From: Streptomyces flavofungini
GTDB taxonomy: Bacteria > Actinomycetota > Actinomycetes > Streptomycetales > Streptomycetaceae
Length of the DNA stretch: 64,000 bases
Direction of reading: 5' to 3'
Assembly (NCBI RefSeq): GCF_030388665.1
Contig: NZ_CP128846.1
Location: forward strand, 1,674,001-1,738,000
Of the stretch, positions 5,637 to 40,389 are shown piece by piece (the first letter of the stretch is position 1; each line of letters starts with the position of its first letter). A model generated the notes under the pieces. That model saw nothing but the letters and a program-made list of their open reading frames with translations, ran no database searches and was not told where the DNA came from. The translations under genes and the position numbers were made by a program.

Positions 5637-5689
5637 CCCGGCCCCCTCCTGGACGACGTCTAGCCGAGTCAAGCCGAACGGATTGGCTT

Positions 5690-5700: not shown

Positions 5701-5759
5701 TTACCGAGCGCAGGGGCCAGTACCAGGGGCAGTCGGACCCGTCACAGCGACAGCGCGCC

Positions 5760-6707
5760 TCACGGACAGCGCACGACCTGCCCCGCGTACGACAGGTTCC
5801 CCCCGAACCCGAACAGCAGCACCGGGTCCCCCTTGGAGATCTCGCCGCGCTCCACCAGCTTGGACAGGGCGAGCGGCACCGACGCGGCCGAGGTGTTGCC
5901 GGAGTCCACGACATCGCGGGCGACGACCGCGTTGACCGCGCCGATCCGGTCGGCGAGGGGCTCGACGATGCGCAGGTTGGCCTGGTGCAGGACGACCGCC
6001 GCGAGGTCGGCGGGGACCAGGCCGGAGCGTTCGCAGGCCGCGCGGGCCAGCGGGGGCAGCCGCGTGGTGGCCCAGCGGTAGACGCTCTGCCCCTCCTGCG
6101 CGAACCGCGGCGGCGTGCCCTCGATGCGCACCGCGTGCCCCATCTCCGGCACCGAGCCCCACAGGACCGGACCGATCCCGGGCTCCTCCCCCTCGGCGCA
6201 CGGCTCGACGACGGCCGCGCCCGCCCCGTCGCCGACGAGCACGCACGTCGTGCGGTCGGTCCAGTCCGTGACGTCGGACATCTTGTCGGCGCCGATGACG
6301 AGCGCGCGGCTCGCCGCCCCCGCCCGGACGGCGTGGTCGGCGGTGGCGAGCGCGTGCGTGAAGCCCGCGCAGACGACGTTGACGTCCATCGCGGCGGGCG
6401 AGGCGAGACCGAGGCGGGCGGCGACCCGCGCGGCCATGTTCGGCGAACGGTCGATGGCCGTGGACGTGGCGACGACGACCAGGTCCACGGACGACGGCGC
6501 GCTGCCCGCGGAGGCGAGCGCCTTGGCGGCGGCGTGCGCGGCGAGCTCGTCGACCGGCTCCTCGGGACCGCCGATGTGGCGGGTGCGGATGCCCACCCGG
6601 GAGCGGATCCACTCGTCGCTGGTGTCGACCATGCCCGTCAAGTCGTCGTTCGTGAGCACCTTGGCGGGCTGGTAGTGGCCGACGGCGGCGATGCGTGAGC
6701 CGGGCAT
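5760..6707 (-). CDS. 3-oxoacyl-ACP synthase III family protein (FabH-like)
   Basis: Thiolase-fold condensing enzyme of 315 residues. The catalytic triad is intact: Cys113 in VNVVCAGF, His241 in LHQANLRIV and Asn271 in SGNTSAAS. The N-terminus has the FabH-type DTSDEWIRSRVGIRTRHI. ATG 6707 precedes MPGSRIAAVGHYQP; longer starts add unconserved residues. It stands alone rather than in the fab operon, 123 bp upstream of the GntR gene on the same strand. It may prime a specialised acyl chain or act as an acyltransferase. It is probably not the housekeeping FabH, but sequence alone does not prove that. Confidence 0.9.
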   Translation of the reverse strand: MPGSRIAAVGHYQPAKVLTNDDLTGMVDTSDEWIRSRVGIRTRHIGGPEEPVDELAAHAAAKALASAGSAPSSVDLVVVATSTAIDRSPNMAARVAARLGLASPAAMDVNVVCAGFTHALATADHAVRAGAASRALVIGADKMSDVTDWTDRTTCVLVGDGAGAAVVEPCAEGEEPGIGPVLWGSVPEMGHAVRIEGTPPRFAQEGQSVYRWATTRLPPLARAACERSGLVPADLAAVVLHQANLRIVEPLADRIGAVNAVVARDVVDSGNTSAASVPLALSKLVERGEISKGDPVLLFGFGGNLSYAGQVVRCP

Positions 6708-6848
6708 GGGTGGATCCCCTCGTGGTGCAGGCAGTGCGGGACGTACGCGAAGTGCGTGACCGTCCAGTCTGCTCAGCGACTCACGGGTAACAGGTGACGT
6801 AATGCGACAGGAATGGGGCGTCCGCTTTGGATGCTTCGCCACATCGTG

Positions 6849-7013
6849 TCACCCGGTGAAGAGCTGTTTGGCCTTGTGTACGAGTTCGTAGAGGCCGTAG
6901 GCCAGGGGCAGCCCCACCCACAGCCAGGCACCGACGATCAAGGGGCGACGCCTCGGCGGGGTCTCACTTGGCCGCGGGCTCGGCGGCGTCGGCTGCGTCG
7001 GCTGCGTCGTCAT
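6849..7013 (-). CDS. MFS transporter small subunit-like protein, overlapping the MFS gene
   Basis: A 54-residue protein with a Pro/Thr-rich start (MTTQPTQPTPP), a short basic stretch PRRR, one membrane helix (LIVGAWLWVGLPLAYGLYEL) and a basic tail ending KQLFTG. ATG 7013 lies inside the last 50 bp of the MFS gene in another reading frame, so the overlap runs 6964-7013. I recognise the pattern as the small protein that accompanies oxalate/formate-type MFS carriers in actinomycetes, which suggests an accessory subunit. The overlap lies over a 9-bp tandem repeat that codes Ala-Ala-Asp units in the MFS frame and Gln-Pro-Thr in this one. Function is by association only. Confidence 0.8.
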   Translation of the reverse strand: MTTQPTQPTPPSPRPSETPPRRRPLIVGAWLWVGLPLAYGLYELVHKAKQLFTG

Positions 7014-8316
7014 CGGACGGCTCCTTCGGTGCGCTGATGTGGTGGCGGGCGTGGACCGGACGTACCAGCTCGTTGGCGACGAAGCCGATGGCGAGCAGGC
7101 CGATCATGATGGAGAGGGAAACGCCGTAGAGGCCGGGGCCGTGCTTGCCCGCCTCCTCCTGGCGGTCGGCCACCCAGTTCACGATCAGCGGGCCGAGCAC
7201 CCCGGCGAGCGACCAGGCGGTGAGCAGCCTGCCGTGGATCGCGCCGACCTGGTAGGTGCCGAAGAGGTCCTTCAGGTAGGCCGGGATCGTCGCGAAGCCG
7301 CCGCCGTAGAAGGAGAGGATGACGAGGGCGCAGACGATGAACAGGGGCTTGGAGTCGTCGCCGAAGCGGGCGATGAGCAGGTACATGAGCGCACCCGCGC
7401 CCAGGTAGAGGCGGTAGACGTTCTTGCGGCCCACGAGGTCCGACGCGGACGACCAGCCGATGCGGCCCGCCATGTTCGCCGCCGAGAGCAGCGCGACGAA
7501 GCCCGCGGCTGCGGACGCCGAGACGGGCGTCGAGGTGTCCGCGAAGAAGTCGGTGATCATCGGGGCGGCCTTCTCCAGGATGCCGATGCCAGCGGTCACG
7601 TTCATGCACAGGACCACCCACAGGCACCAGAACTGCGGGGTGCGCACGGCCTGCCGCGCCGACACCTGCGGCCCCTCCAGCGGCGCCGGAGCCCCGGGGA
7701 CGCGCGCGCCCCGCGACCTCGGCACCCGCACCAGGACCACACCGAGCGCCATGAACACCGCGTACGTCAGGCCGTGCACCAGGAACGCGAGCGCGATGCC
7801 GGAGGAGTCGGAGCCGAACGTCTCCAGCATCTGCGCCGACCACGGCGAGGCGATCAGCGCGCCACCGCCGAAGCCCATGATCGCGATGCCGGTGGCCATG
7901 CCAGGGCGGTCGGGGAACCACTTGATGAGCGTGGACACCGGGGAGATGTAGCCGATGCCGAGCCCGATGCCGCCGACGAAGCCGTAGCCGAGGACGATCA
8001 GCCAGTACTGGCTGATCGCGGCGCCGAGCGCGGCGATCAGGAAGCCGGAGGAGAAGCAGACGAGCGCGACGGACATCGCCCAGCGCGGCCCGTTGCGCTC
8101 CACGAGGGTGCCGCCGAACGCGGCGGACAGGCCGAGCATGACGATGCCGAGCTGGAACGGCAGCGCGCTCTGGGTGCCGCTGAGGTCGAGCGCCGACTCC
8201 AGGGGCGGTTTGAACACACTCCAGGCGTAGGCCTGGCCGATCGAGAGATGCACTGACAGAGCGGCGGGCGGCACGAGCCAGCGGGTCCAGCCGGGTGGCG
8301 CTACGGGGGGCCTCAT
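6964..8316 (-). CDS. MFS transporter, oxalate/formate antiporter-like (OxlT family)
   Basis: A 12-helix major facilitator of 450 residues. The N-terminus has the OxlT-type pattern LSIGQAYAWSVFKPPLE, and WFPDRPGMATGIAIMGFGGGALI occurs in helix 5, both typical of the oxalate/formate antiporter subgroup. The C-terminal tail is acidic and Ala-rich. ATG 8316 was chosen as the start closest to the first helix; a start at 8382 would add a Pro-rich leader without homology. Its last 50 bp overlap the small partner gene. The formate dehydrogenase operon 4 kb away makes oxalate or formate a reasonable substrate, but other carboxylates are possible. No oxalyl-CoA decarboxylase gene is in the window. Confidence 0.88.
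   Translation of the reverse strand: MRPPVAPPGWTRWLVPPAALSVHLSIGQAYAWSVFKPPLESALDLSGTQSALPFQLGIVMLGLSAAFGGTLVERNGPRWAMSVALVCFSSGFLIAALGAAISQYWLIVLGYGFVGGIGLGIGYISPVSTLIKWFPDRPGMATGIAIMGFGGGALIASPWSAQMLETFGSDSSGIALAFLVHGLTYAVFMALGVVLVRVPRSRGARVPGAPAPLEGPQVSARQAVRTPQFWCLWVVLCMNVTAGIGILEKAAPMITDFFADTSTPVSASAAAGFVALLSAANMAGRIGWSSASDLVGRKNVYRLYLGAGALMYLLIARFGDDSKPLFIVCALVILSFYGGGFATIPAYLKDLFGTYQVGAIHGRLLTAWSLAGVLGPLIVNWVADRQEEAGKHGPGLYGVSLSIMIGLLAIGFVANELVRPVHARHHISAPKEPSDDDAADAADAAEPAAK
6983..7009. repeat. Three 9-bp tandem units in an overlapping coding region
   Basis: Three units, GCGGCGTCG then GCTGCGTCG twice, lie in the region read in two frames by the MFS gene and its small partner. Both proteins therefore carry a three-residue periodicity here. 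Confidence 0.7.
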
Positions 8317-28604: not shown

Positions 28605-28752
28605 AATCTGTCCCGCCCTTACCCTTGTGGCCGCATTTCACCTGCTGACCTGTGACGATCGTGCGCCTATGGGCGCTTCCCACCCCCCTCCCGGAAGGGA
28701 TCGGGGTGGGGTACCGTCACCGGCGCTGTGCGGAGCGCCACAAGGAGCACCA

Positions 28753-30576
28753 TTGCGCGAGTTCACGAACCCTCCCATGGCGTCGGCGCCACGGGTGGGC
28801 GGCCTTGCCGACGCCGTGTTCGACCATGCCCTTGAGGATCCGGTCCGCGTCGTCCTCGGCCGCAAGCGTGACGGGGTCTGGGAGGACGTGACGTCGGCGG
28901 AGTTCCGCGACGAGGTCCTCGCGCTCGCCAAGGGGCTGCTCGCGCAAGGCGTGCGGTTCGGCGACCGGGTCGCCATCATGTGCCGCACCCGCTACGAGTG
29001 GACGCTGTTCGACTTCGCCCTGTGGACCGTGGGCGCGCAGGTCGTCCCGGTGTATCCGACGTCGTCGGCCGAGCAGGTCTTCTGGATGCTGCACGACGCG
29101 CAGGTCTCGGCGGCGATGGTCGAGCACGAGGACCACGCCATGACCATCGGCTCGGTCGTGGACCGGCTGCCGCAGCTGCGCCGTCTGTGGCAGCTCGACG
29201 GTGACGCGGTACGGGCCCTCACCGAGGCCGGGCGCGCCATGGACGACGAGGTGGTGCACCGCCACCGGCGCGCCGTCACGCCGGACTCCGTGGCCACCGT
29301 GATCTACACCTCCGGCACCACCGGCCGCCCCAAGGGCTGCGTCCTGACCCACGCGAACTTCATGTTCGAGGTGGACACGCTCATCGAGCGCTGGGAGCCG
29401 GTGTTCCGCGGCAAGCGCGGCGACGAGCCCTCGACCCTCCTCTTCCTGCCGCTCGCGCACGTCTTCGGGCGCATGGTGCAGGTCGCCGCGGTGCGCGCCC
29501 GCGTCAAGTTCGGCCACCAACCGAGCCTGAACGCCGCCGCCCTGATCCCCGACCTCGCCGTGTTCCGGCCGACGTTCATCCTGGCCGTGCCGTACATCTT
29601 CGAGAAGGTCTTCAACGCGGCCCGCCGCAAGGCCGAGCGGGAGGGCAGGGCGGGCCCGTTCGACAAGGCGGTGGAGGCGGCGGTGCGGTACGCCGACGCG
29701 ATGGAGGCCAAGGCCTTCGGCACCGGACCGGGGCCCTCGGCGACGCTGCGGATGCAGCACCAGGTCTTCGACAAGCTCGTCTACGCCAAGGTCCGCGACG
29801 CCATGGGCGGCAGGGTGCGGCACGCGATGTCCGGCGGCTCCGCGATGGACCGGCGCCTCGGCCTGTTCTTCGCGGGCGCGGGCGTGCAGGTCTTCGAGGG
29901 GTACGGCCTGACCGAGTCCACGGCCGCCGCGACCGCCAACCCGCCCGAGCGCACCCGCTACGGCACGGTCGGCCAGGCCATCCCCGGCACCACCGTGCAC
30001 ATCGCCGAGGACGGCGAGGTGTGGCTGCGCGGCGGCCATGTCTTCCAGGGCTACCTCAACGACCCCAAGGCCACCGACGCGACCCTGCACGACGGCTGGC
30101 TCGCCACCGGCGACCTGGGCTCCCTCGACGACGACGGCTACCTCACCATCACCGGCCGCAAGAAGGAGATCCTGGTGACCTCCGGCGGCAAGAGCGTCTC
30201 GCCCGCCCAGCTGGAGGAACGCGTACGCGACCACCCCCTGGTCGCCCAGTGCATCGTCGTCGGCAACGACCGCCCCTACATCGCCGCCCTCGTCACCCTC
30301 GACGCGGAAGCCGTCGAGCACTGGCTGTCCATGCGCGACAAACCCCCGATGCCCCCCGGCGACCTGGTCCGCGACCCCGACCTGGAGACCGAGGTGCGGC
30401 GGGCCGTGGTGGCCGCCAACACCCTGGTCTCGCAGGCCGAGTCGATCCGCACCTTCCGGATCCTCGCCCACCAGTTCAGCGAGGAGCACGGTCTGCTCAC
30501 GCCCTCGCTGAAGCTCAAGCGCAAGGCCATCGAGCAGGCGTACGCGGACGAGGTGGAGGCGCTCTACCACTCCTGA
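28753..30576 (+). CDS. Long-chain fatty acid-CoA ligase (FadD-type AMP-binding enzyme)
   Basis: Adenylate-forming enzyme of 607 residues that activates fatty acids with ATP and CoA. Core motifs are P-loop VIYTSGTTGRPKGC, the middle motif GYGLTESTAAA, LATGDLGSLDDDGYLTITGRKKE and a C-terminal lysine region (LKLKRKAIEQAY). I chose TTG 28753 because AGGAG lies five bases upstream and the reading MREFTNPPMASAPR matches the usual start of actinobacterial members. In-frame upstream starts would read through the promoter. It is monocistronic and ends in a 16-bp tandem repeat plus hairpin. Confidence 0.93.
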   Translation: MREFTNPPMASAPRVGGLADAVFDHALEDPVRVVLGRKRDGVWEDVTSAEFRDEVLALAKGLLAQGVRFGDRVAIMCRTRYEWTLFDFALWTVGAQVVPVYPTSSAEQVFWMLHDAQVSAAMVEHEDHAMTIGSVVDRLPQLRRLWQLDGDAVRALTEAGRAMDDEVVHRHRRAVTPDSVATVIYTSGTTGRPKGCVLTHANFMFEVDTLIERWEPVFRGKRGDEPSTLLFLPLAHVFGRMVQVAAVRARVKFGHQPSLNAAALIPDLAVFRPTFILAVPYIFEKVFNAARRKAEREGRAGPFDKAVEAAVRYADAMEAKAFGTGPGPSATLRMQHQVFDKLVYAKVRDAMGGRVRHAMSGGSAMDRRLGLFFAGAGVQVFEGYGLTESTAAATANPPERTRYGTVGQAIPGTTVHIAEDGEVWLRGGHVFQGYLNDPKATDATLHDGWLATGDLGSLDDDGYLTITGRKKEILVTSGGKSVSPAQLEERVRDHPLVAQCIVVGNDRPYIAALVTLDAEAVEHWLSMRDKPPMPPGDLVRDPDLETEVRRAVVAANTLVSQAESIRTFRILAHQFSEEHGLLTPSLKLKRKAIEQAYADEVEALYHS

Positions 30577-30663: not shown

Positions 30664-32250
30664 TCAGCCGCAGTCCTGGCTCGACCCGCTCTGGCTGATC
30701 CGCAGGGCGCCGCCGCCGGTGTCGGCGCTGTCGCGGACGCAGTAGCCACGGGTCTTCTGGAAGACGAGGTCGGCCGGGCTCGACGAACCGCGTTGTGCGG
30801 TGAGGCCGGTGAAGTGGATGCCCGTGCTCTCGTTGGCGATGACGGCCGGGCGGCCGTCGTCCGACCCGAAGCGGACCTCGCTGTCGACGAAGGTGATCCG
30901 GTCGGCGCGGCGGATGTACCAGCCGTACGCGGGCCGGGTGCCGATGCTCTTCGGGTTGTAGTCGGTGGACTTGTTGCTGGGCACGTCCGTCGGCATGGTG
31001 CCGTTGCCGCCGGGCACCGTGAGGTCGACGTCGGTGAAGGTGACGTCCTTGATGCGGCTGTGCCCGGACTCGCCCCACAGGGTCGGCGAGAAGGACGGGC
31101 TCGCCCCGGTCGCCTTGACGTTCGTGTAGGTGATGTCGCTGATCGAGCCGACGCCGGGGTTGTTGCCGCAGCGTTTGCGGTTGCCGATCTTCTGCATGAT
31201 CGGTGAGCGCACGCCGGTCATGGTGATGTCCTTGTAGTGGACGTCGGAGATCTTCGAGCCGTCCATGGACACCATGCCGAGGCCGGATTTCTCCGAGCCC
31301 TCGATCCTGATCCGCTCGAAGCGGTAGTCGGTGAAGTCGCCGCAGGTCTCCGAGCCGAACATGAGCGCGTTGCAGCATCCGGCGGAGAGGTAGGAATCGC
31401 TCACGCGCACCCGGCCGTTGGACAGCTTCGCGCCGAGCGCGTAGTCGCTCTTGAACGCGAGCGCGTCGTCGTTGGCGTCCAGGTGGGCGCCTGTGATGGT
31501 CACGTCGGTGGTGTTGATGATGTTCCAGCCGTCGCGGTCCATCGCGGTGTCGATGGTGAGGCGGTCGGAGACCACGTCGTCGCAGCCGTTGATGAGCGCC
31601 GCGAAGTGGCCGCCCTCGCGCAGCGTGAGCCCGTCGCCGATGCGCAGGCCCTTGCACCGCGTCAGCGAGATGATCTTGTCGGCCTCGCCGGACTTCGGGT
31701 CGCCGGTGATCAGGGCGCCGTCGCCGTCGATGACGCCCTCGCCGACGAAGCCGATGTCGGTCAGCCGGTCGCCGTGGATCATCGCGTTGCGGAAGTGGCT
31801 GTGGCCGTAGTCCTGGTAGTCGTCCCACTCGTTGGGCTCGGGCGGGTCGTAGTCGTCGGCGCCGTTGCCGGAGAGGGTCGCGCCCTTGTCGATCCGGAGC
31901 GTCACGCCGCTCTTCATGTGCAGGGTGTTCTTGGACTCGTACGTCGCCCTGCCGTCCCCGGGCAGGCGCACGGTGCCGCCGCCCGCGGCGTTGGCCGCGT
32001 CGACGGCCTTCTGGATGGCGGGGGTGTCGTTGCTGGAGCCGTCGCCTTTGGCGCCGTAGTCACGGACGTCGAACTCGGCTGCGGGCAAGGGCGGCGAGGG
32101 CACGGACGTGGGGGGCGTCGTGCTTGCTCCGGCGGGGAACTGCGCGGCTCCGGCGGGCCGGCCGTCGAAGACCGCGAGCACCGCGAGCGCGGCGAGGCCC
32201 GCGGCCAGGGCTCCGGTCCATGTGCGTGATCTGATCGGTGGTCTGCTCAT
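30664..32250 (-). CDS. Secreted GH28 polygalacturonase-like right-handed beta-helix protein
   Basis: Exported protein of 528 residues. The signal segment (GALAAGLAALAVLAVFDGRPAGAAQ) is followed by a Pro/Ser linker and the pectate-lyase/GH28 start DVRDYGAKGDGSSNDTPAIQKAVDAAN. Many short beta-strand coils follow. NDDALAFKSDY corresponds to the GH28 acidic motif, but the classical GHG and RIK motifs are not clearly present, so an atypical exo-acting or rhamnogalacturonan-type enzyme is possible. Cysteine pairs (SAGCCNALMFGSETCGD) suggest disulfides. ATG 32250 has GAGGGG upstream. It is the last gene of the PQQ/pectin locus, separated from it by three hairpins, so it may have its own promoter. 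Confidence 0.8.
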   Translation of the reverse strand: MSRPPIRSRTWTGALAAGLAALAVLAVFDGRPAGAAQFPAGASTTPPTSVPSPPLPAAEFDVRDYGAKGDGSSNDTPAIQKAVDAANAAGGGTVRLPGDGRATYESKNTLHMKSGVTLRIDKGATLSGNGADDYDPPEPNEWDDYQDYGHSHFRNAMIHGDRLTDIGFVGEGVIDGDGALITGDPKSGEADKIISLTRCKGLRIGDGLTLREGGHFAALINGCDDVVSDRLTIDTAMDRDGWNIINTTDVTITGAHLDANDDALAFKSDYALGAKLSNGRVRVSDSYLSAGCCNALMFGSETCGDFTDYRFERIRIEGSEKSGLGMVSMDGSKISDVHYKDITMTGVRSPIMQKIGNRKRCGNNPGVGSISDITYTNVKATGASPSFSPTLWGESGHSRIKDVTFTDVDLTVPGGNGTMPTDVPSNKSTDYNPKSIGTRPAYGWYIRRADRITFVDSEVRFGSDDGRPAVIANESTGIHFTGLTAQRGSSSPADLVFQKTRGYCVRDSADTGGGALRISQSGSSQDCG

Positions 32251-32276
32251 GTCCCGTCCCCTCGCTGTGCGTCGGC

Positions 32277-32303
32277 GGTCCGGGGCCGGTGCGGCCCCGG
32301 ACC
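32277..32303 (-). terminator. Strong hairpin upstream of GH28
   Basis: An 11-bp perfect stem (32277-32287 with 32293-32303) has a 5-nt loop. It is one of three consecutive hairpins between the PQQ dehydrogenase stop and the GH28 start. Confidence 0.6.
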
Positions 32304-32332
32304 GTTCCCGTCCCGGCCGGGCCGGACGGCGA

Positions 32333-32354
32333 CCGCGCGCCCCACGGCGCGCGG
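32333..32354 (-). terminator. Middle hairpin of the triple set
   Basis: CCGCGCGCC (32333-32341) and GGCGCGCGG (32346-32354) form a perfect 9-bp stem with loop CCAC. Confidence 0.6.
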
Positions 32355-32365
32355 CCACCGCCCGC

Positions 32366-32392
32366 CCGGCCGGTGGTCGTGCGACCGGCCGG
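32366..32392 (-). terminator. Hairpin directly behind the PQQ dehydrogenase gene
   Basis: CCGGCCGGT (32366-32374) and ACCGGCCGG (32384-32392) form a 9-bp stem, starting 12 bp after the dehydrogenase stop, the best-placed terminator of the three. Confidence 0.65.
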
Positions 32393-32404
32393 GGTCCCTT
32401 CCGG

Positions 32405-33529
32405 CTAGCCGATGGTGACGCGGAAGATCTTGTCCGCGCCGTCCGGCTGTCCGCCGTTGCCGTCCGCGTTGGTCGTGGACAGCCACAGCGCCTTCGCGCC
32501 CGGCACGGTGGTCACCGAGCGCAGACGGCCGTACTGGCCGACGTAGAAGGCCTTGGCCGTGCCGACGTTCTCGTTGTCGGCGTTGATGGGGATGCGCCAC
32601 ATGCGCCGGCCCTTGAGGGCCGCCATGTAGACCGCGCCGTCGACGATCGCCACGCCGCTCGGCGAGGCTTCCGCGACGCCCCAGGTCTTCTTGGGGTTGG
32701 TCATGCCGGAGACGTTGCAGTTGCCCTCGCAGGTGGGCCAGCCGTAGTTCTTGCCCGGCTTGATGAGGTTCAGCTCGTCCTTGCTCGCGTCGCCGAGCTC
32801 GGCCTCCCACAGGCGGCCCTGCGGGTCGAAGGCGATGCCCTGCGGGTTGCGGTGGCCGAGGCTGTACACGTAAGTGCCGAAGGGGTTGCCGGGGGCGGGC
32901 TTGCCGTCCCTGGTCATCCGCAGGATCTTGCCGTTGAGCGAGTTCTTGTCCTGCGCGAGCGGCTTGTTCTGGGCGTCGCCGGTGGTGGCGTACAGATAGC
33001 CGTCGGGGCCGAAGGCGAGGCGGCCGCCGTTGTGGTACTTGGCCTTCTTGATGCCCTTGAGCAGCACGGTGTAGCCGCTGAGCGAGGAGCCGTCGTACGT
33101 CATGCGCGCGACGCGGTTGCCCTCGGACGAGGTGTGCATGAAGTACACGTAGTGGTTCGTCGCCCACTGGGGGTCCACGGCGACGCCCATGAGGCCGCCC
33201 TCGCCGCCCGTCGTCTGTGACTCGGGCACCGTGCCGACCTGCTTCTTCGCCGAGCCGTCGGCCGAGATCGACCAGACCCGGAAGTCGTCGCGCTCGGTGA
33301 CAAGCGCCGACTTGCCGTCGGGCAGCCAGGACGTGCCCCAGGGTATGGTCCAGCCGCTGGAGACGGTCTTGATGTCGGTGGGCTCGCCGGCGGGCGCGGC
33401 CGGGGCGGCCGACACCGACGGGACGTACACCACGAGTCCCGCCGTCAGCGCGGCCGTCGCGGCGAGCGCCACCTTCCGGGCCAGACGGCTCCTGCTCCTG
33501 CTCCTGCTGTCGTGCACGAGAACCTCCAT
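32405..33529 (-). CDS. Secreted PQQ-dependent sugar dehydrogenase (soluble glucose/sorbosone dehydrogenase family)
   Basis: Exported quinoprotein of 374 residues expected to oxidise a sugar outside the cell using pyrroloquinoline quinone. A basic Arg/Ser-rich start and hydrophobic core (VALAATAALTAGLVVYVPSVSA) form the signal. The six-bladed propeller shows WTIPWGTSWLPDG, GGEGGLMGVAVDPQW, the PQQ-site motif YHNGGRLAFGPDGYLY and GHRNPQGIAFDPQGRLW. Two cysteines in WPTCEGNCNV may be a disulfide. ATG 33529 was chosen as the first Met before the signal. It lies downstream of a complete set of PQQ synthesis genes on the same strand, strong support for the cofactor. The sugar may be a pectin-derived product; that is inference. 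Confidence 0.88.
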   Translation of the reverse strand: MEVLVHDSRSRSRSRLARKVALAATAALTAGLVVYVPSVSAAPAAPAGEPTDIKTVSSGWTIPWGTSWLPDGKSALVTERDDFRVWSISADGSAKKQVGTVPESQTTGGEGGLMGVAVDPQWATNHYVYFMHTSSEGNRVARMTYDGSSLSGYTVLLKGIKKAKYHNGGRLAFGPDGYLYATTGDAQNKPLAQDKNSLNGKILRMTRDGKPAPGNPFGTYVYSLGHRNPQGIAFDPQGRLWEAELGDASKDELNLIKPGKNYGWPTCEGNCNVSGMTNPKKTWGVAEASPSGVAIVDGAVYMAALKGRRMWRIPINADNENVGTAKAFYVGQYGRLRSVTTVPGAKALWLSTTNADGNGGQPDGADKIFRVTIG

Positions 33530-33587
33530 GGGGGGTGTGGGCGTGGGGGGGGGTGAGAGGGTGACCGGCGCTCGATATGACGCAGCG

Positions 33588-33921
33588 TCAGCCACCGTAC
33601 CGAGCAACGATCTTGGCGAACGCGTACGGCTGCTGGCCGATGCCGCCGCACGAGTCGCCCGGATGGACTCGATGGCGGACTCGTCGGAGCCGCCCTTGAG
33701 CGGTCTGCCGCCGTCCCAGGCCGGGTCGCAGCCGCCGTCGGACAGGACGAACGCGAGCGTGAACCACTTCACGCCGGTCGCGGCCATCACGTCGGTGGGC
33801 CTCTGCGGGTTGCCCCGGCCCAGGCACTCGTAAGGAGCGGCGTGGATCGTGCCGGCAGCGGGGCGATGCCGAGGGCGGCCGTGAGGGCGAGGCCGCCCAG
33901 GACGCCGATCTTGCGACGCAT
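33588..33921 (-). pseudogene. GH18 chitinase remnant with frameshift and large internal deletion
   Basis: ATG 33921 begins a signal peptide (MRRKIGVLGGLALTAALGIA). After about 24 codons the frame must shift to give HAAPYECLGRGNPQ and then TGVKWFTLAFVLSDGGCDP and GGSDESAIESIRA, the start of a GH18 chitinase catalytic domain. Without the shift the reading stops at about codon 45. The sequence then jumps, in another frame, to GIGQQPYAFAKIVARYGG and a TGA at 33588, which looks like the natural C-terminus of the same family. Roughly 200 or more residues of the barrel, including the catalytic DxxDxDxE motif, are absent. It lies 14 bp behind the lyase-like gene, so an intact chitinase was once part of this operon. 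Confidence 0.75.
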
Positions 33922-33935
33922 CGTGGTCGTTCTCC

Positions 33936-34730
33936 TCAGACGAGTTGGTAGCCGCGCATGCCCGTCAGGAGCATGTACGTGTTCTGCAGCGAGCCCGAAC
34001 TGTCGCCGAGGGAGCGGTAGATGCCCCACTTGGGCCGCACCCGGTCGGCGAGGAAGGTGTCGATGCCGGACTTCGACTTGTCGATGACGGTGGTGGTGCC
34101 GCTCTTGAGGATCCACCGCACGGAACCCGACGAGCCGTCGCCGATCTTGATCTGGAAGTCGACGTCGGTCCACTTGTCGTGCAGCGGCGCCAGGTCGGTG
34201 CGGCCGACGAGGATGTCCTGCTCGAAGATCTTCAGCTCGATGGTCTGCTTGCCGTCGACCCGGCGCAGGGACTGCACGACGATCGGCGCGCTGCCCGCGC
34301 CGGGCTGCTTCATCTGCATGATGTGCGTGAAGCTCGTCGTCGCCCTGAGCGTGGCGGGCAGGAACATGCGGTACGTGACGCGCCAGGTCTGGCCCTTCTG
34401 CCACTTCAGGAACGAGTCGCCGTTGCGGCAGCCGGTGACCTCGTGGCGCTGCCGGTCGTCGCTGGTGTCGCGGTCGACGGTGTGCATGGTGAAGCGGAAG
34501 TTGTCGCCCTCGGCGAAGATGTGCGGTTTCGCGGCCGGGTGCGAGTTCGCGCGGTCGTCCTCCAGCGTCTCGAAGGCGCGCAGACCGACGTCGCGGGCGG
34601 ACGGGGACCAGCGCAACCGCCAGTCCGCGGCGGGCGCGGCGGCGGCCGGCGACAGACCCGCCGCCGTGGCGGCCGCGCCCGCGCCGGTGCCGAGCGCCGC
34701 GGCGAGCAGGGCTCTGCGGGAGGGGGTCAT
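33936..34730 (-). CDS. Tat-exported polysaccharide lyase-like protein
   Basis: Secreted protein of 264 residues. TPSRRALLAAALGTGAGAAATAAG is a twin-arginine-type signal ending near AAAAPAADW. The mature part is beta-rich with FRFTMHTVDRDTS, TSFTHIMQMKQPGAGSAPIV, LKIFEQDILVGR and WGIYRSLGDS, resembling concanavalin-like jelly-roll lyases (PL7/PL20 or heparin-lyase-like). I cannot place it in a family with certainty. It starts seven bases after the GH105 stop, so both are translated from one message; GH105 enzymes act on the unsaturated products of lyases, which supports a lyase role. The chitinase remnant follows 14 bp downstream. Confidence 0.65.
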   Translation of the reverse strand: MTPSRRALLAAALGTGAGAAATAAGLSPAAAAPAADWRLRWSPSARDVGLRAFETLEDDRANSHPAAKPHIFAEGDNFRFTMHTVDRDTSDDRQRHEVTGCRNGDSFLKWQKGQTWRVTYRMFLPATLRATTSFTHIMQMKQPGAGSAPIVVQSLRRVDGKQTIELKIFEQDILVGRTDLAPLHDKWTDVDFQIKIGDGSSGSVRWILKSGTTTVIDKSKSGIDTFLADRVRPKWGIYRSLGDSSGSLQNTYMLLTGMRGYQLV

Positions 34731-34737
34731 GAGGGGG

Positions 34738-35991
34738 TCACCTCTTCTTCCTGAGTTGCTCGTTCATGATCAGAAAGGCCCCGAGACCGTGGAAGTCGTT
34801 GGTCTGCCGGGGCCGGGCTATGTAGAAGGCGTAGTCGCCGACGTTGGTGCCGATGGAGATGTCCGTGAGGTCGGTCAGACCGTCGGATCCGAGTGAGATC
34901 TTCTTCAGGACTCCGGCGTACCCGCGGCGTGCGACGCTCTGGTACGACGGCGCCACGTACCCCTTCTCGGCGGCGCGGGACAGCGCGAAGGTGAACATGC
35001 TCGAGCAGGACGTCTCCGTCCAATTACCTTCCCGCGTCCCCTTGTTGACGACCTGGAACCAGCGTCCGGTGGCGGGGTCCTGGGCCCGCGCGATCCCCGC
35101 CGCCAGCGTGCGCACGTGCCCGAGCAGCTCCGGGCGGCCCGGGTCGCTGCGCGCGGTGGCGTCCAGGACGTTGACGGCGGCCATGGAGTACCAGCCGATC
35201 GCCCGGCACCACTGCTCCGGTGCGCGCCCGGTGTCCTTGTCGGCCCAGGTCGCGGTGCGCGACTCGTCGTAGGCGTGCTGGAACAGGCCGTTGTCGGCCT
35301 GGAGGTGGCGCGCGTACACGTTCAGCTGCTCGACGGCCTCGCGGTCGGTGTACGCCTCGTCGCCGAACTCCTTGCCGTACTCGACGAGGAACGGCGTGAC
35401 CATGTAGACGCCGTCCGACCAGAGTTGGTGCGCGCGGCTCGCGGTGTCGGCGTGCCAGAAGCCGCCGTCCCGGGTGCGCGGGTAGGTCTTCAGGCGGTCG
35501 CGGATCTTCCGGGCGGCGACGCGGTAGCGGTCCTCGCCGGTCTCGTGGTGCAGGATCACCAGGAGCCGCCCGGCCTGGATGCTGTCGAGGTTGTTGAACT
35601 TCTGCCCGATGTTCCCCTCGGCGTCGACGAAGCGGTCCACGTAGCTCTTGATGTACGTCAAGTAGCGCGCGTCGTGGGTGCGTTGGTACGTCTGGTACTG
35701 GCCGAAGAGGTAGAGGCCGACGGGGTAGGACCAGCCGCCGATGGTGGTGGGCGTGAACCGGGTCGTCGTCGACTCGACCATGGCGACGGACCAGTCCGTC
35801 GCCTGGGGCCGCGCGGTGGGCGCCCGATCCGCGCCGGGTGCGCCCTGCGCCGACGCGGGCGCCGCCTGCGCGGTGAGGGCGGCGGACCCGGCGAGGACCG
35901 CGGCGAGGACGGCGCGGGCGGCCCTGCGGCGCGGGCGGGCGGGTTGCGGTGGGCGCGGTGTCGGTGAGGTGGGTGAGCTGTGACGGCGCAT
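34738..35991 (-). CDS. Secreted GH105/GH88 unsaturated glucuronyl or rhamnogalacturonyl hydrolase
   Basis: Exported (alpha/alpha)6-barrel enzyme of 417 residues that would cleave the unsaturated uronic acid from oligosaccharides made by pectin or rhamnogalacturonan lyases. A Pro/Arg-rich leader and hydrophobic core (AVLAAVLAGSAALTAQAAPASA) form the signal. Family motifs are DSIQAGRLLVILHHETG, GGFWHADTASRAHQLWSDGVYMVTPFL (the Asp of WSDG is the expected catalytic position), WCRAIGWYSMAAVNVLD and NWTETSCSSMFTFAL. ATG 35991 overlaps the pqqE stop by one base (TGATG), tying it to the PQQ operon. The secreted form is less usual than cytoplasmic relatives. Confidence 0.88.
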   Translation of the reverse strand: MRRHSSPTSPTPRPPQPARPRRRAARAVLAAVLAGSAALTAQAAPASAQGAPGADRAPTARPQATDWSVAMVESTTTRFTPTTIGGWSYPVGLYLFGQYQTYQRTHDARYLTYIKSYVDRFVDAEGNIGQKFNNLDSIQAGRLLVILHHETGEDRYRVAARKIRDRLKTYPRTRDGGFWHADTASRAHQLWSDGVYMVTPFLVEYGKEFGDEAYTDREAVEQLNVYARHLQADNGLFQHAYDESRTATWADKDTGRAPEQWCRAIGWYSMAAVNVLDATARSDPGRPELLGHVRTLAAGIARAQDPATGRWFQVVNKGTREGNWTETSCSSMFTFALSRAAEKGYVAPSYQSVARRGYAGVLKKISLGSDGLTDLTDISIGTNVGDYAFYIARPRQTNDFHGLGAFLIMNEQLRKKR

Positions 35992-37085
35992 CAGGTTCCT
36001 CCCTCGCGGTAGGCGTAGCCGGGGTGGTCCGGTGCGGGCCCGCGCGCCGCGTCGACCAGGGCGCGCACCACGCCGTGGTCGGGTGAGCGGTGGCAGGCGG
36101 GGTCCGTGCGGGCGGCGTCGCCGGTCAGGGCGTACGCCTGGCAGCGGCAGCCGCCGAAGTCGACGGTGCGCAGCTCGCAGGAGCGGCAGGGCTCACGCAT
36201 CCAGTCCTCGCCCCGGTAGCGGGTGAACGCGGGCGACTCCCGCCAGATCCAGTCCAGCGGCCGGTCCCGCACGTTGGGGGCGTCCGCGCCGAGCAGCTCC
36301 GCCGCGGCCGGGCAGGGCAGCACCGTGCCGTCGGGCGTGACGGTCAGGGACACCGCGCCCCAGCCGCCCATGCAGGGCTTGGCGGTGGCGTCCACGTAGT
36401 CGGGCGCGACCCACACCAGCTCCATCCGGCCGCCGAGCCGTACCCGCCAGCGCTCCAGGGTCGCCCGGGCGCGGGCCACCTGCTCCGGGTCGGGCAGGAG
36501 CGCGTCGCGGTTGCGCAGCGCCCACCCGTAGAACTGGGTGTTGGCCAGCTCGATCCGGTCGGCGCCCCAGGCGAGGCCCAGCTCCACGAGGGCGTCGAGG
36601 GCGTCGAGGTTGGCGCGGTGCAGGACGGCGTTCAGGCCGAGCGGCAGGCCGGCCTCGCGGACGAGGCGGGCGGCGCGCTCCTTCGCGCCGGTGGCCCGGG
36701 CCCCGGCGATGAGGTCGGCGCGGGCGGGGTCGGCGTGCTGCACGGACAGCTGGACGCTGCGCAGGCCCGCGTCGACGAGCCCGGCGAGGCGCGCCTCGTG
36801 CAGGCCGACGCCGCTGGTGACGAGCTGGGTGTGGATGCCCGCCGCGTCGGCCGCCGCGACGATGTCCCGCAGATCGCGGCGCAGCAGCGGCTCGCCACCC
36901 GACAGATGCGTCTGGACGACGCCCAGGTCGGCGGCCTGACGCAGCACGTCGCCCCACTCGTCGCCGGACAGTTCAGCTGACCGACTGTTCAGTTTGACCG
37001 GGTTGGAGCAATAGGCGCAGCGGAGCGGGCAGCCGTGGGTCAGCTCGGCGAGGAGGGCCCAGGGCGGCTCGGGCGCGGGGGTCAT
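35991..37085 (-). CDS. pqqE: PQQ biosynthesis radical SAM enzyme PqqE
   Basis: Radical SAM peptide cyclase of 364 residues that makes the Glu-Tyr C-C crosslink in PqqA. The SAM cluster motif is Cys19/23/26 (CPLRCAYC). GGEPLLRRDL and the C-terminal SPASM-type cysteines (CMGGWG, CRSCELRTVDFGGCRCQAY) bind auxiliary clusters. ATG 37085 overlaps the pqqD stop (ATGA). Its own stop overlaps the GH105 start (TGATG), an unusual coupling of a cofactor gene to a secreted glycosidase gene. Length and motifs are normal for PqqE. Confidence 0.95.
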   Translation of the reverse strand: MTPAPEPPWALLAELTHGCPLRCAYCSNPVKLNSRSAELSGDEWGDVLRQAADLGVVQTHLSGGEPLLRRDLRDIVAAADAAGIHTQLVTSGVGLHEARLAGLVDAGLRSVQLSVQHADPARADLIAGARATGAKERAARLVREAGLPLGLNAVLHRANLDALDALVELGLAWGADRIELANTQFYGWALRNRDALLPDPEQVARARATLERWRVRLGGRMELVWVAPDYVDATAKPCMGGWGAVSLTVTPDGTVLPCPAAAELLGADAPNVRDRPLDWIWRESPAFTRYRGEDWMREPCRSCELRTVDFGGCRCQAYALTGDAARTDPACHRSPDHGVVRALVDAARGPAPDHPGYAYREGGT

Positions 37086-37465
37086 CGCAGCCACCTCTGC
37101 GCCCGCAACCGGCCCAGGAACACCGGGACTTCGGCGCCGACCGGCGCGCCCGGGTGGCGCCGCTCGAGCTCCGCGACGATCCCGGCCACGTCGCGCTCCC
37201 CGTCGCACAGCGCCAGGATGCTCGCGGCCGCGCCCCGCAGCACCACGACGCGCTCGGGCAGGAGCAGCAGGTCGCCACCGCGTACCCGGTCGTGGCGCAG
37301 GACGACGGAACGGGCGAGGACGGGGCGCCAGTCGGGGCGTACCGGCTCGTCCTCGGCGGCGCCCGGACCCTCGGCTCCGACCGGGTCTTCGGCGGCGCCC
37401 GGCCTGTACGCGCCGACCGGGCCCTCGGCGACCGGCGCGTGACCGTTCACGAAGGTCTCACGCAC
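37082..37465 (-). CDS. pqqD: PqqA-binding chaperone PqqD with N-terminal extension
   Basis: Small winged-helix RiPP recognition protein that presents PqqA to PqqE. The conserved part starts near RPDWRPVLARSVVLRHDRVRGGDLLLLPERVVVL and ends with AELERRHPGAPV and RLRAQRWLR, about 85 residues as expected. An extra N-terminal stretch of about 40 residues is made of imperfect GAAED-P-V repeats and is probably disordered. GTG 37465 gives an 8-bp overlap with the pqqC end; a later start inside the extension is possible. The stop overlaps the pqqE start. Confidence 0.9.
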   Translation of the reverse strand: MRETFVNGHAPVAEGPVGAYRPGAAEDPVGAEGPGAAEDEPVRPDWRPVLARSVVLRHDRVRGGDLLLLPERVVVLRGAAASILALCDGERDVAGIVAELERRHPGAPVGAEVPVFLGRLRAQRWLR

Positions 37466-38225
37466 GGCCGCCCTCCTCCCTCAGACCCTCGCTGCCGCCG
37501 GCCCCGTCCACCGCGTCGAGCAGCGACCACAGCACGTCGCACTTGAAGGCGAGCGCCGCCACGGCCCGCTCCTGCTCCTCGCGGGTGCGGGCCCAGGCGC
37601 GCACCAGGCCGAGCGCCTCCTGGCCGTCACGGCCGCCCTGGCCGACCCGGCCCCGGAAGTAGGTGAGGCCCTCGGTGTCGATCCACGGATAGTGCCGCTC
37701 GAACGCGGCGATGCGGGTGCGCATCAGGTCGGGCGCGGACAGCTCGGTGAGCGAGGCGGCGACGGCGTCGAGCGCGGGCCGCAGGCGGCAGAAGTTGACG
37801 TACCCGTCGACGGCGAGCCGCACCCCGGGCAGCACCCGGGAGGTGTCCCACAACTCCTCGCGCGCGATGCCCGCGGCCTCGCCGAGCCTGAGCCACCGCT
37901 CGATGCCGCCCTCGCCGGGGCGCTCCCCGTCGTGGTCCCTGATCCGCCGCGACCAGCCCCGGCGCAGCGCGGGGTCGTCGAACTTGGCGAGGATCAGGGC
38001 GTCCTTGACGGGGATGTGCCGTTGGTAGTGGAAGCGGTTGGCGATCCAGCGGCGCAACTCGGCCCGGGTCAGGGTGCCTTCGTGCATGCGGACGTTGAAG
38101 GGGTGGCGGTCGTGGTAGCGCGCGGCGGAGACGGCGCGCAGCCGCTCGGTGAGTTCGTCGGGGGTCCAGGGCGCCCGGCCGGAGTCCGCTCCGGGGCCCG
38201 TCTCGGTCTTGACGGTCGTGGTCAC
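37458..38225 (-). CDS. pqqC: Pyrroloquinoline-quinone synthase PqqC
   Basis: Cofactorless oxidase of 255 residues that performs the last ring closure and eight-electron oxidation in PQQ synthesis. The helical fold is marked by ARYHDRHPFNVRMHEGTL, RRWIANRFHYQRHIPVKDALIL, the family motif RDHDGERPGEGGIERWL and FERHYPWIDTEGLTYFRGR. GTG 38225 overlaps the pqqB stop (GTGA). The C-terminus runs eight bases into pqqD. All key regions look intact. Confidence 0.95.
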   Translation of the reverse strand: MTTTVKTETGPGADSGRAPWTPDELTERLRAVSAARYHDRHPFNVRMHEGTLTRAELRRWIANRFHYQRHIPVKDALILAKFDDPALRRGWSRRIRDHDGERPGEGGIERWLRLGEAAGIAREELWDTSRVLPGVRLAVDGYVNFCRLRPALDAVAASLTELSAPDLMRTRIAAFERHYPWIDTEGLTYFRGRVGQGGRDGQEALGLVRAWARTREEQERAVAALAFKCDVLWSLLDAVDGAGGSEGLREEGGRA

Positions 38226-39133
38226 AGCTCGATCACCATCCGGTCCTGCGCGACTTCGAGCCCCCAGTCGGCGAGTTGCTCGTGCTGCTCGGCGCCCGGG
38301 TCGCCGAGCGGGTTGGTGTTGTTCAGGTGCGTGTAGAGGCAGCGTCCGGGCAGCCCGGCGAGCCGGTGGGCGGTGCCGCCGGGCCCGGCGACGGGCAGAT
38401 GGCCCATGCCGGTGGCCGTGCGGTCGCTGAATCCGGCCCGCCGGGGTTCCTCCTCGTCCCAGAAGGTGCCGTCGACGAGGACGACGTCCGCTTCGCGGGC
38501 GGCCTCCTCGAAGGCGTCGGTCCAGGCGGCGAGCGCCGGGGCGTACAGGACGGTGCGGCCCGTCCCGGTGTCGGTGAGGCGCAGGGCGACGGACCAGGGG
38601 CCGTCGTCCGGGCCGAGGTCGGCGGCGTAGCGCGGCCGCTTGGCCGAAACCCGCACCGCGGCGACCCGCACTCCTGAATGGCGGTTCAGTCGCTGCCCGG
38701 ATTCCGTGAGTTCGTTCCAGCGCGCCTCGGTGTACGGGCCGAGCACGGCGCCGAGCCCGAGGCGGTCCCGGACGGCGCCGAGCACGGGCGCGGTGGCGAG
38801 CACGTCGACGCCGTCGCGGGCCTCCCGCAGCCGGGCGATGCCGAGGGTGTGGTCGAGTTCGGCGTCGGTGAGGACGACGCCGGCGAGCGGGGAGAGGCGG
38901 GTGTCGGCCCCCGGCCCCGCGTCGGGGAGCAGGCCGGGGCAGGACTCGATCTGCTCGCCGATGTCGGGGGTGGCGTTGACGAGGTACCAGCGGCCCGGGC
39001 TCGCGCGCAGGGCGAGCGAGGCGTGCAGGCGGCGGCGTTCCGGGTGGGCGCGTGCCCCGGCACAGCCGGGGCACGCGCAGTTCCACTGGGGGAGTCCGCC
39101 GCCCGCCGCGGTGCCGAGCACCTGGAGCAGCAT
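38222..39133 (-). CDS. pqqB: PQQ biosynthesis protein PqqB
   Basis: Metallo-beta-lactamase-fold hydroxylase of 303 residues thought to oxidise the tyrosine of the PqqA crosslink. The N-terminus has the typical VLGTAAGGGLPQWNCACPGCAGAR with a CxxC zinc pair, then NATPDIGEQI, LTDAELDHTLGI and VLYAPALAAWTDAF; the end reads THLNNTNPLGDPGAEQ. ATG 39133 is ten bases after the pqqA stop and its own stop overlaps pqqC. Normal length. Confidence 0.95.
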   Translation of the reverse strand: MLLQVLGTAAGGGLPQWNCACPGCAGARAHPERRRLHASLALRASPGRWYLVNATPDIGEQIESCPGLLPDAGPGADTRLSPLAGVVLTDAELDHTLGIARLREARDGVDVLATAPVLGAVRDRLGLGAVLGPYTEARWNELTESGQRLNRHSGVRVAAVRVSAKRPRYAADLGPDDGPWSVALRLTDTGTGRTVLYAPALAAWTDAFEEAAREADVVLVDGTFWDEEEPRRAGFSDRTATGMGHLPVAGPGGTAHRLAGLPGRCLYTHLNNTNPLGDPGAEQHEQLADWGLEVAQDRMVIEL

Positions 39134-39143
39134 CGGTGCGGGT

Positions 39144-39281
39144 CTACCGGTCGGCGAGGCGGTACGCGGTGACCTCGAGCGAGGTCTCGACGACCGTGAA
39201 CTCGGGGGTCTGCCAGCCGGTGGGCCCGGTCTCGGGAGAGACGGCGGTGACCTCCGACGTCTCCATCTCGTGAGTGTTCAT
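39144..39281 (-). CDS. pqqA: PQQ precursor peptide PqqA
   Basis: A 45-residue precursor whose Glu36 and Tyr40 (EVTAY near the C-terminus) are the two residues joined by PqqE. The leader has the conserved Trp-Pro-Phe pattern WQTPEFTVVET. ATG 39281 (MNTHEMETSEV) is the likely start, although an in-frame start further upstream exists. It is longer than the 20-30 residues of proteobacterial PqqA. It opens the minus-strand pqqABCDE set and would be transcribed from the 283-bp region before it. Confidence 0.93.
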   Translation of the reverse strand: MNTHEMETSEVTAVSPETGPTGWQTPEFTVVETSLEVTAYRLADR

Positions 39282-39355
39282 GTGCGTGTTCCTACCCTTC
39301 CTGAAAAGTGGGGGTTCAGGAGTCACTGGGACAAAATGCCGTGCACGCGCCCAGG

Positions 39356-39381
39356 GTGTTCACATGGATGGCCTGTGTTCA
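39356..39381. promoter_or_regulatory. Direct GTGTTCA repeats upstream of pqqA
   Basis: GTGTTCA occurs at 39356-39362 and 39375-39381, 19 bp apart, about 75-100 bp ahead of pqqA. Two helical turns of spacing would suit an activator. No -10/-35 was confidently found in this 283-bp region. Confidence 0.3.
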
Positions 39382-39564
39382 GCGACGTGCAACAGAGTTG
39401 CGTCATGACGGGACGCGGTCAATGGTTCGGACCGATAAGGTCGGAGCTATATCTAGCCATTCTCAGGGCGCCGGAGAGCGGCAACGCCACGCCAGGAATG
39501 CGACACGGGCCCTGATCGTTGACCATGGACGTACCACCCGACGACGTATAAGGATCGAGAGCTC

Positions 39565-40389
39565 GTGAGCAAGGTCCCCCCGATCATCCTGAACAACGGC
39601 ATCGAGATGCCGCAGCTGGGCTTCGGTGTCTGGCAGGTGCCGGACGACGAGGCGGAGCGGGCCGTGGCGACGGCGCTGGAGTCCGGGTACCGCAGCATCG
39701 ACACGGCGGCCGTCTACGAGAACGAAGTGGGCACCGGCAAGGGCATCGCCGCCTCCGGAATCGACCGCGACAAGCTCTTCGTCACGACGAAGCTCTGGAA
39801 CGACCAACAGGGGTACGACTCGGCGCTGCGCGCCTTCGACGCGTCCCTGGAGCGGCTGGGCCTGGACTACGTCGATCTGTACCTGATCCACTGGCCCGTG
39901 CCGTCCGCGGACACGTACATCGACACGTACAAGGCCTTCGAGAAGATCCTCGCCGACGGTCGCGCCAAGTCCATCGGCGTCTCCAACTTCCTTCCGGAGC
40001 ACCTGGAGCGCCTCATCGACGCCACGTCGGTGATCCCGGCGGTCAACCAGATCGAGCTGCACCCCCACCTCCAGCAGCGCGCCTCCCGCGAGTTCCACGC
40101 CCAGCAGGGCATCGCCACGGAGGCCTGGTCCCCGCTCGGCCAGGGCAAGGGCCTCCTGGAGGTCCCGGCGATCATCGCCATCGCCCAGAAGCACGGGCGC
40201 ACGCCCGCGCAGATCGTGCTCCGCTGGCACATCCAGCTCGGGAACGTCGTCATCCCCAAGTCGGTGACGCCCTCCCGCATCAAGGAGAACATCGACGTGT
40301 TCGGCTTCGAGCTGGACCCGGAGGACATGGCGGCGATCAGCGCCCTGAACGAGGACCGGCGGCTCGGGCCGGACCCGGCGGAGATGTAG
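39565..40389 (+). CDS. Aldo/keto reductase
   Basis: NADPH-dependent carbonyl reductase of 274 residues. Catalytic tetrad regions are present: SIDTAAVYENEVGTGKGI (Asp and Tyr), VTTKLWN (Lys) and LYLIHWPVP (His). The NADP-binding end has VIPKSVTPSRIKENIDVF. This matches the AKR5-type 2,5-diketo-gluconate-reductase-like group. The start is GTG 39565 after AAGGATCGAGAG. It is divergent from pqqA across 283 bp. It might reduce sugar acids released near the pectin locus, but this is only positional. Confidence 0.93.
   Translation: MSKVPPIILNNGIEMPQLGFGVWQVPDDEAERAVATALESGYRSIDTAAVYENEVGTGKGIAASGIDRDKLFVTTKLWNDQQGYDSALRAFDASLERLGLDYVDLYLIHWPVPSADTYIDTYKAFEKILADGRAKSIGVSNFLPEHLERLIDATSVIPAVNQIELHPHLQQRASREFHAQQGIATEAWSPLGQGKGLLEVPAIIAIAQKHGRTPAQIVLRWHIQLGNVVIPKSVTPSRIKENIDVFGFELDPEDMAAISALNEDRRLGPDPAEM

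Follow-up and report, generated by a model that had tools for sequence, protein, structure and literature searches.

A conserved modular locus joins PQQ biosynthesis genes to predicted secreted polysaccharide enzymes in Streptomyces

A 64,000-nucleotide stretch of the Streptomyces flavofungini genome (contig NZ_CP128846.1, positions 1,674,001 to 1,738,000), referred to below as the window, carries a single minus-strand run of genes that begins with pqqA-B-C-D-E, for biosynthesis of the cofactor pyrroloquinoline quinone (PQQ), and continues through a secreted GH105 hydrolase, a lyase-like open reading frame (ORF), a GH18 remnant, a GSDH-family sugar dehydrogenase, and a GH28 protein. The run is a conserved modular locus, not a quirk of a single genome. 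We think it probable, though by no means assured, that it represents a secreted plant-polysaccharide locus with PQQ-dependent sugar oxidation, in which PQQ making is an accessory function that is often lost. An earlier note, made from the sequence of the window alone, had proposed a new system built on these genes; a conserved, coupled locus is indeed found, but it is best seen as a polysaccharide locus with an optional cofactor operon.

Results

Gene run in the window

The genes of the run, all on the minus strand, are listed in order of transcription, with profile scores and, for pqq products, NCBIfam cut-offs.

39147..39281, minus: pqqA, PQQ precursor peptide, 45 residues (TIGR02107, 23.7 bits, cut-off 20)
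38222..39133, minus: pqqB (TIGR02108, 329.7 bits, cut-off 245)
37458..38225, minus: pqqC, PQQ synthase (TIGR02111, 281.9 bits, cut-off 240)
37082..37465, minus: pqqD, peptide chaperone (TIGR03859, 64.5 bits, cut-off 46)
35991..37085, minus: pqqE, radical SAM PqqA cyclase (TIGR02109, 479.2 bits, cut-off 381.35)
34738..35991, minus: GH105, secreted, putative YteR-like unsaturated rhamnogalacturonyl hydrolase (PF07470, 290 bits)
33936..34730, minus: lyase-like protein (PF14099, 27.6 bits), with a twin-arginine-like signal judged by eye
33580..33921, minus: decayed GH18-like (chitinase-type) gene, its pieces in different frames as judged by eye
32405..33517, minus: GSDH-family aldose sugar dehydrogenase, secreted, quinoprotein type (PF07995, 243 bits)
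30664..32250, minus: GH28, secreted, rhamnogalacturonidase-like (PF00295, 77 bits)

All five pqq products exceed their equivalog cut-offs, and the genes stand in pqqA-E order. The core motif of PqqA, Glu-x-x-x-Tyr, can be read in the sequence as EVTAY. A 10-bp gap separates pqqA from pqqB, and overlaps of 4 bp (pqqB-pqqC), 8 bp (pqqC-pqqD) and 4 bp (pqqD-pqqE) join the rest. The ATG of the GH105 gene lies inside the pqqE stop codon (TGATG, with one shared base) and has GGAGG shortly upstream; the lyase-like ORF begins 7 bp after the GH105 gene, and every gap from pqqA through the lyase-like gene is 10 bp or less. The coordinates agree with the earlier note on each of these junctions and on the placement of the whole run, to GH28, on one strand. 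The description needs correction farther along, where the dehydrogenase gene lies 418 bp beyond the lyase-like ORF with the remnant between them. The 9.36-Mb genome has exactly one PqqE over the cut-off and one match to PF07470 (GH88/105); the two overlapping genes encode them. The pairing is therefore not a matter of chance adjacency, an explanation that is ruled out by there being a single gene of each family in the genome and by the recurrence of the pair, with its codon overlap, in other genomes.

Conservation of the pqqE-GH105 junction

PqqE scores over the cut-off in 86 of 392 genomes of the genus. The set examined consists of 101 pqqE loci, the window plus 100 further loci over the cut-off, each with flanks of about 10 kb (shorter at contig ends), so that genes absent from the fetched flanks could lie outside them; stretches with pieces of pqqE below the cut-off (L134, L136-L140, in our locus numbering) were kept out of the counts. 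In 24 of the 101 loci, counting the window, the gene immediately downstream of pqqE, in the same orientation, is GH105; another six have GH105 5-9 kb upstream of pqqE. Within the 24, which answer the synteny check that the earlier note had proposed, pqqE and the GH105 gene share 1-4 bases in 18 and are separated by a 1-bp gap in two; in the other four the GH105 start was placed by script far from pqqE. Overlap at pqqE is also seen where GH105 is missing at the same site: pqqE overlaps the dehydrogenase gene by 4 bases in L087 and, taking the nearest in-frame start, the lyase-like gene in L118. A GSDH match occurs in the flanks of 64 of the 101 loci, two of these matches scoring below 100 bits.

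All trees used here are quick trees without bootstrap, in which many branches are unsupported and long branches are flagged. In the PqqE tree (100 rows, with L080 left out) a single clade of 32 rows, with SH-aLRT 96, unites all 24 loci; its other members are L128 and seven loci from this chromosomal site. The clade persists, at SH-aLRT 91, after addition of the Actinoallomurus locus L201 and removal of four long rows. L135, a refetch of L080, has a GSDH gene upstream and no GH105.

A pqqB match is missing from the flanks in 17 of the 24 loci with a direct GH105 junction (L094, L101, L103, L104, L108, L109, L111, L114, L120-L122, L125, L126, L129-L132). An incomplete PQQ pathway in these organisms is ruled out: all 25 genomes searched, the 17 included, have PqqB over the cut-off.

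Modular variants and other gene orders

The interval between pqqE and the dehydrogenase gene varies from locus to locus at this site. It contains no other enzyme of the set in L087, L106 and L110, a GH18-like gene in L112, a lyase-like gene in L118, GH105 plus a lyase-like gene in L124 and L127, and a larger set in others. In L122, positions 2960-7456 encode a single protein of 1498 residues in which GH28 is combined with a fucosidase-like domain, F5/8 type C and GH27. Annotation of fused or extra genes covered some loci, with L122 as the large form among them; ORFs of comparable or greater size were called in other loci.

Two further arrangements bring related enzymes next to pqq. A separate PqqE clade holds six loci in which GH105 and GSDH genes lie no more than 9 kb from pqq; the 3-kb contig L053 groups with them. 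Three of the six were read gene by gene. In L056, GH105 faces one direction and the GSDH and lyase-like genes the opposite one, while a gene judged by eye to be fucosidase-like leads, with GH28, into pqqA; L082 is without a GH28 match, and L074 has, of the set, GH105 and GSDH only. In Actinoallomurus (L201) the order is GH18-like, GSDH, fucosidase-like, GH105, GH28, GH27, then pqqB-E; a pqqA match is absent, and PqqE from this locus sits outside the 32-row clade, on a long, unsure branch. That related sets recur next to pqq in three different orders speaks for a functional link.

The dehydrogenase

The nearest solved structure to the window dehydrogenase is 3das (302 bits). The start of the window gene is taken as GTG at 33517, or 33529 if an upstream ATG is used. 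Six residues aligned to H144, R228, N229, K377, R406 and R408 of soluble glucose dehydrogenase (sGDH), which we take to be the PQQ and catalytic residues of that enzyme, are kept in the window protein as H164, R225, N226, K304, R333 and R335 (numbered from 33523), although the alignment of K304, R333 and R335 rests on a second segment that is not significant. The conserved residues support the earlier description of a PQQ-type sugar dehydrogenase, which the protein would be by this alignment. Against the NCBIfam model non_repeat_PQQ it scores 144 bits, below the cut-off of 434.55, and we therefore file it as aldose sugar dehydrogenase (Asd) type.

The sGDH positions H144, R228, N229, R406 and R408 are invariant in every GSDH that covers them from GH105 loci, a count that left out GSDH matches below 150 bits. 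This holds for 52, 50, 50, 46 and 46 sequences, respectively, at loci with pqqE and for 32, 32, 32, 31 and 31 sequences at loci without it. The K377 position is Arg in 29 and Lys in three sequences from loci without pqq, and Arg in 36 and Lys in 12 from loci with pqq. Two of the dehydrogenases, L122:927-2963 and L109:3843-5912, carry an N-terminal CBM6/35 and two fn3 domains.

The polysaccharide enzymes

The GH105 protein, whose signal peptide was judged by eye, is closest to YteR (chain 1nc5, 255 bits), and it retains the Asp of 1nc5 at a position that is Asn in chain 2gh4, presumably the catalytic Asp of YteR-type GH105. By profile and by this residue it is a putative unsaturated rhamnogalacturonyl hydrolase of the YteR type. 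The GH28 protein scores 278 bits against NF049898, the model for the BT4146 rhamnogalacturonidase, which is below the cut-off of 500 and short of assigning it to that type.

A sequence search for solved relatives of the lyase-like protein found none at E 0.01, and its structure was therefore predicted. The model, built from 36 sequences with a mean pLDDT of 83, has a beta-jelly-roll fold. Its best fold matches, with TM-scores of about 0.5, are alginate lyases (PL7, PL14), a Trichoderma glucuronan lyase, and heparin lyase I, with unrelated jelly-roll proteins lower down the list. The model supports a lyase-type fold and does not indicate a particular substrate.

The chitinase remnant reported in the earlier note is confirmed by one matching piece, 72 residues long and 83% identical to a 337-residue GH18-like protein encoded at L112:10720-11733. 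Relatives in L161 and L162 match residues 44-337 and 26-337 of that protein. The L112 protein matches solved chitinases, among them an exochitinase at 1e-48, yet neither Pfam nor NCBIfam gives a match for it at 0.001.

Border genes and the pqqA leader

Three features frame the run.

28627..30576, plus: left border, AMP-binding (acyl-CoA ligase-like) gene (PF00501, 236 bits)
39282..39564, no strand: gap shared by pqqA and the aldo/keto reductase gene, with conserved blocks and an inverted repeat in a 16-sequence alignment
39565..40389, plus: right border, divergent aldo/keto reductase gene, DkgA-like (PF00248; NF008598, 353 bits, cut-off of 425 not reached)

The two border genes are linked on one strand in 57 of 60 other genomes, 50 of which are without PqqE over the cut-off and ten of which have pqq elsewhere. 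The gap between them, read by hand from listings, is less than 200 bp in 31 genomes, 200 bp to 2 kb in 17, about 5 kb in seven, and about 9 kb in two. The two longest gaps (L141, L142) hold a polysaccharide set with GSDH but without pqq, while L148 and L149, with gaps of about 1.1 kb, have the lyase-like gene alone among the genes sought. About 5 kb of other DNA separates the border genes in L143-L146 and L160, whose genomes are without the block.

At the ribosome-binding site of pqqA (39282-39321, minus strand) lies a small inverted repeat, CTGAA-CCCCCAC-TTCAGGA, largely kept in the 16 aligned loci. A loose pattern for the repeat finds it in five of the 24 loci with a direct GH105 junction, in all seven other loci with the aldo/keto reductase gene, and in none of the remaining 70 pqqE loci; among 30 named loci it occurs in eight. 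As for a known RNA element in this leader (39282-39564), no Rfam match appeared up to E 1.

Loss of pqq and limits of the coupling

Several observations weigh against the reading favored here, some of them against a dependence of the enzyme set on its own PQQ. The fetched flanks of 71 of the 101 pqqE loci hold no GH105. Conversely, a second set, the best 80 of 171 GH105 loci (overlapping the pqqE set, as where L164 is L127), divides into 26 with pqqE and GSDH, three with pqqE only, 30 with GSDH only, and 21 with neither. Among the genomes behind 34 pqq-less GH105 loci, whose completeness is not given, seven have PqqE elsewhere and 27 have none over the cut-off; for the 30 of these loci that have GSDH, the split is five and 25. 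Seven of 34 does not exceed the rate for the genus as a whole. The same search was positive in three pqq-bearing controls (L161, L166, L201), and one locus, L195, starts at a contig end that lies 475 bp ahead of GH105, where pqq could adjoin beyond it. A locus that strictly needs its own PQQ is therefore ruled out, and most of the searched relatives with a pqq-less locus contradict such a need. On a GH105 tree of 103 rows, from which duplicates and any row shorter than 280 residues or scoring below 300 bits were removed, pqq changes 15 times; four independent pairs lie on starred branches, and a paired test of pqq against GSDH, with these four pairs only, gives p 0.5. The window genome has eight GSDH-family matches, and its PQQ may for that reason serve other proteins of the family. 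At pqq loci that have no GH105, 42 GSDHs were compared: Leu stands in place of the catalytic His in two and Ala in place of one Arg in one, and the K377 position varies. The lyase-like protein falls just under the PF14099 gathering threshold of 29.9 bits (a relative in L122 scores 31.7), and its fold neighbors act on alginate, glucuronan and heparin.

The direction of change at this site is likely loss of pqq, because the PqqE tree points to one origin there. Stubs of pqq genes in the gaps between the aldo/keto reductase and GH105 genes of 25 pqq-less loci agree with that direction: three are clear (44 residues of pqqE in L209; pqqA over 39 and 46 residues in L204 and L210) and four are weak (L172, L175, L186, L206), against none of 25 reversed controls.

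The extent of the transcript also bears on the coupling. The earlier note had the genes from pqqA to GH28 in one message. Overlaps and short gaps extend as far as the lyase-like gene; the remnant lies before GSDH, and the following feature before GH28.

32254..32404, minus: GSDH-GH28 gap with two very stable hairpins, a possible end of the pqqA-GSDH unit

The 154-bp gap has a predicted RNA fold of -118.9 kcal/mol (z -5.2; 0 of 200 shuffles as low), and a single message through GH28 is therefore doubtful in the window. The stretch after GSDH, scored with mononucleotide shuffles, gives z -3.4 in L161 and -3.0 in L166, both of which have GH28 there, 1.3 in L162 although GH28 is present, -2.6 in L163, and 0.0 to 0.9 in L164, L165, L127 and L124. 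GH28 may thus form a separate transcript in the window, with no general rule across relatives. A sigma-70 promoter scan found none, with 0.3 expected by shuffling, and is uninformative here.

Discussion

Proposed mechanism and alternatives

From the gene content, overlaps, conservation, border genes, residues and stubs described above we infer co-transcription, export, substrate, electron acceptor, and scavenging of PQQ as follows. PqqA-E, judging from their families, would make PQQ in the cytosol; PQQ would exit the cell and load the secreted aldose dehydrogenase of the GSDH type. Outside the cell the lyase-like protein, GH28 and GH105 would cut an acidic plant polysaccharide, most likely pectin of the rhamnogalacturonan type, with GH105 taking off the unsaturated uronate left by a lyase. 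The dehydrogenase would then act on a freed aldose, or on a fragment at its reducing end, oxidizing it to an aldonolactone and passing electrons to an acceptor. The overlap of the pqqE stop with the GH105 start would tie PQQ making to the first secreted hydrolase, so that the cofactor would rise together with the enzymes. Many relatives lack pqq at this locus yet keep a dehydrogenase with the PQQ-site residues, and they presumably use PQQ from neighbors. It is possible, though we offer the idea tentatively and would not rely on it, that PQQ acts here as a leaky public good, the same site being occupied in some strains by makers, which produce PQQ and enzymes from one message, and in others by takers, which have repeatedly lost pqqA-E but retain the enzymes and a quinoprotein that would have to be loaded with PQQ made by other cells.

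The coupling could be real and the functions unlinked, with pqq serving other quinoproteins, for example in gluconate formation for phosphate release, and merely lodged 5' of the polysaccharide locus, sharing a promoter either way. The eight GSDH-family matches, the pqq-less genomes without PqqE, and the many pqqE loci without GH105 all fit such an arrangement, as does PMC11858620, which ties Streptomyces pqq to glucose dehydrogenase and phosphate solubilization. We consider it unlikely nonetheless, given that pqq is accompanied by related enzyme sets in three different arrangements, that 18 of 24 loci retain the overlap of codons, that well over half of the pqqE loci have a GSDH match in their flanks, and that the window genome shows no quinoprotein of the eight-blade PF01011 type at E 0.001, which removes these proteins as candidate PQQ users there. 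A more radical possibility, that the GSDH-like protein is a structural or binding beta-propeller and the PQQ link only apparent, would also suit the 27 genomes without PqqE; it is very improbable, since no covering sequence from GH105 loci departs from the catalytic His or from Arg, Asn, Arg and Arg at the other four positions, and 3das is tabled in PMC6881789 as an S. coelicolor aldose sugar dehydrogenase among fold relatives of PQQ enzymes.

Alternatively, the system may work as proposed on another uronate polymer, such as arabinogalactan, glucuronan or a microbial exopolysaccharide. The predicted fold of the lyase-like protein, nearest to alginate, glucuronan and heparin lyases, leans that way, as do the fucosidase-like, GH27, GH8 and GH18-like genes in sister loci, whereas the GH105 protein is closest to YteR and the GH28 protein to the rhamnogalacturonidase model, albeit below its cut-off. 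We regard a non-pectin target as rather unlikely. The pectin target of the earlier note thus keeps the support of GH105 and GH28, both of which point to rhamnogalacturonan, and does not gain that of the lyase-like protein. We continue to favor a plant-polysaccharide locus with PQQ-dependent sugar oxidation and an optional cofactor operon.

Relation to known systems

GH105 is found with rhamnogalacturonan hydrolases in the YteR locus of Bacillus subtilis and in the rhamnogalacturonan loci of Bacteroides, and the window locus likewise places GH105 beside a putative rhamnogalacturonan hydrolase. To our knowledge, those loci have no dehydrogenase and no cofactor operon. The window dehydrogenase belongs to the same six-blade GSDH family as the soluble Asd proteins (3das, 2ism, 3a9g, 2g8s) and soluble glucose dehydrogenase, with PQQ-site residues kept; it differs in gene context, and the L122 and L109 enzymes differ further in their added CBM6/35 and fn3 domains.

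With pqqABCDE operons in general, and with the pqqB-E plus gcd genes of Streptomyces reported as a phosphate-solubilizing set in PMC11858620, the window locus shares the biosynthesis genes and a PQQ sugar dehydrogenase as the intended user. That paper treats the dehydrogenase as converting glucose to gluconate. In the window, by contrast, pqqE overlaps the gene for a secreted hydrolase, and the dehydrogenase is a secreted aldose type in a polysaccharide locus. The Coprinopsis cinerea AA12 pyranose dehydrogenase is, like the window protein, a secreted, six-blade, PQQ-type sugar dehydrogenase; according to PMC4133262 and PMC6881789, it carries a carbohydrate-binding domain and is discussed with plant-cell-wall breakdown. 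The first describes activity on L-fucose and other sugars (PMC4133262), and the second gives the AA12 domain as 16-19% identical to bacterial relatives (PMC6881789). The fungal enzyme differs also in having a cytochrome domain. Unlike the fungal case, producers here encode PQQ synthesis in the same locus. Fungi are not known to make PQQ. No description of pqq coupled to a polysaccharide locus was found among the literature matches listed, judged by titles and the openings of abstracts and with subscription journals mostly uncovered, and within that range the earlier note's view of the coupling as undescribed holds.

Significance

If this interpretation is correct, PQQ would have a concrete role in some actinomycetes, the oxidation of sugars freed from plant polysaccharide, and the supply of the cofactor would be linked to secreted enzymes through overlapping codons. 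Secreted bacterial PQQ-type dehydrogenases with carbohydrate-binding modules would form a bacterial parallel to the fungal ones. The natural series of loci from makers to takers would allow a direct test of the need for PQQ.

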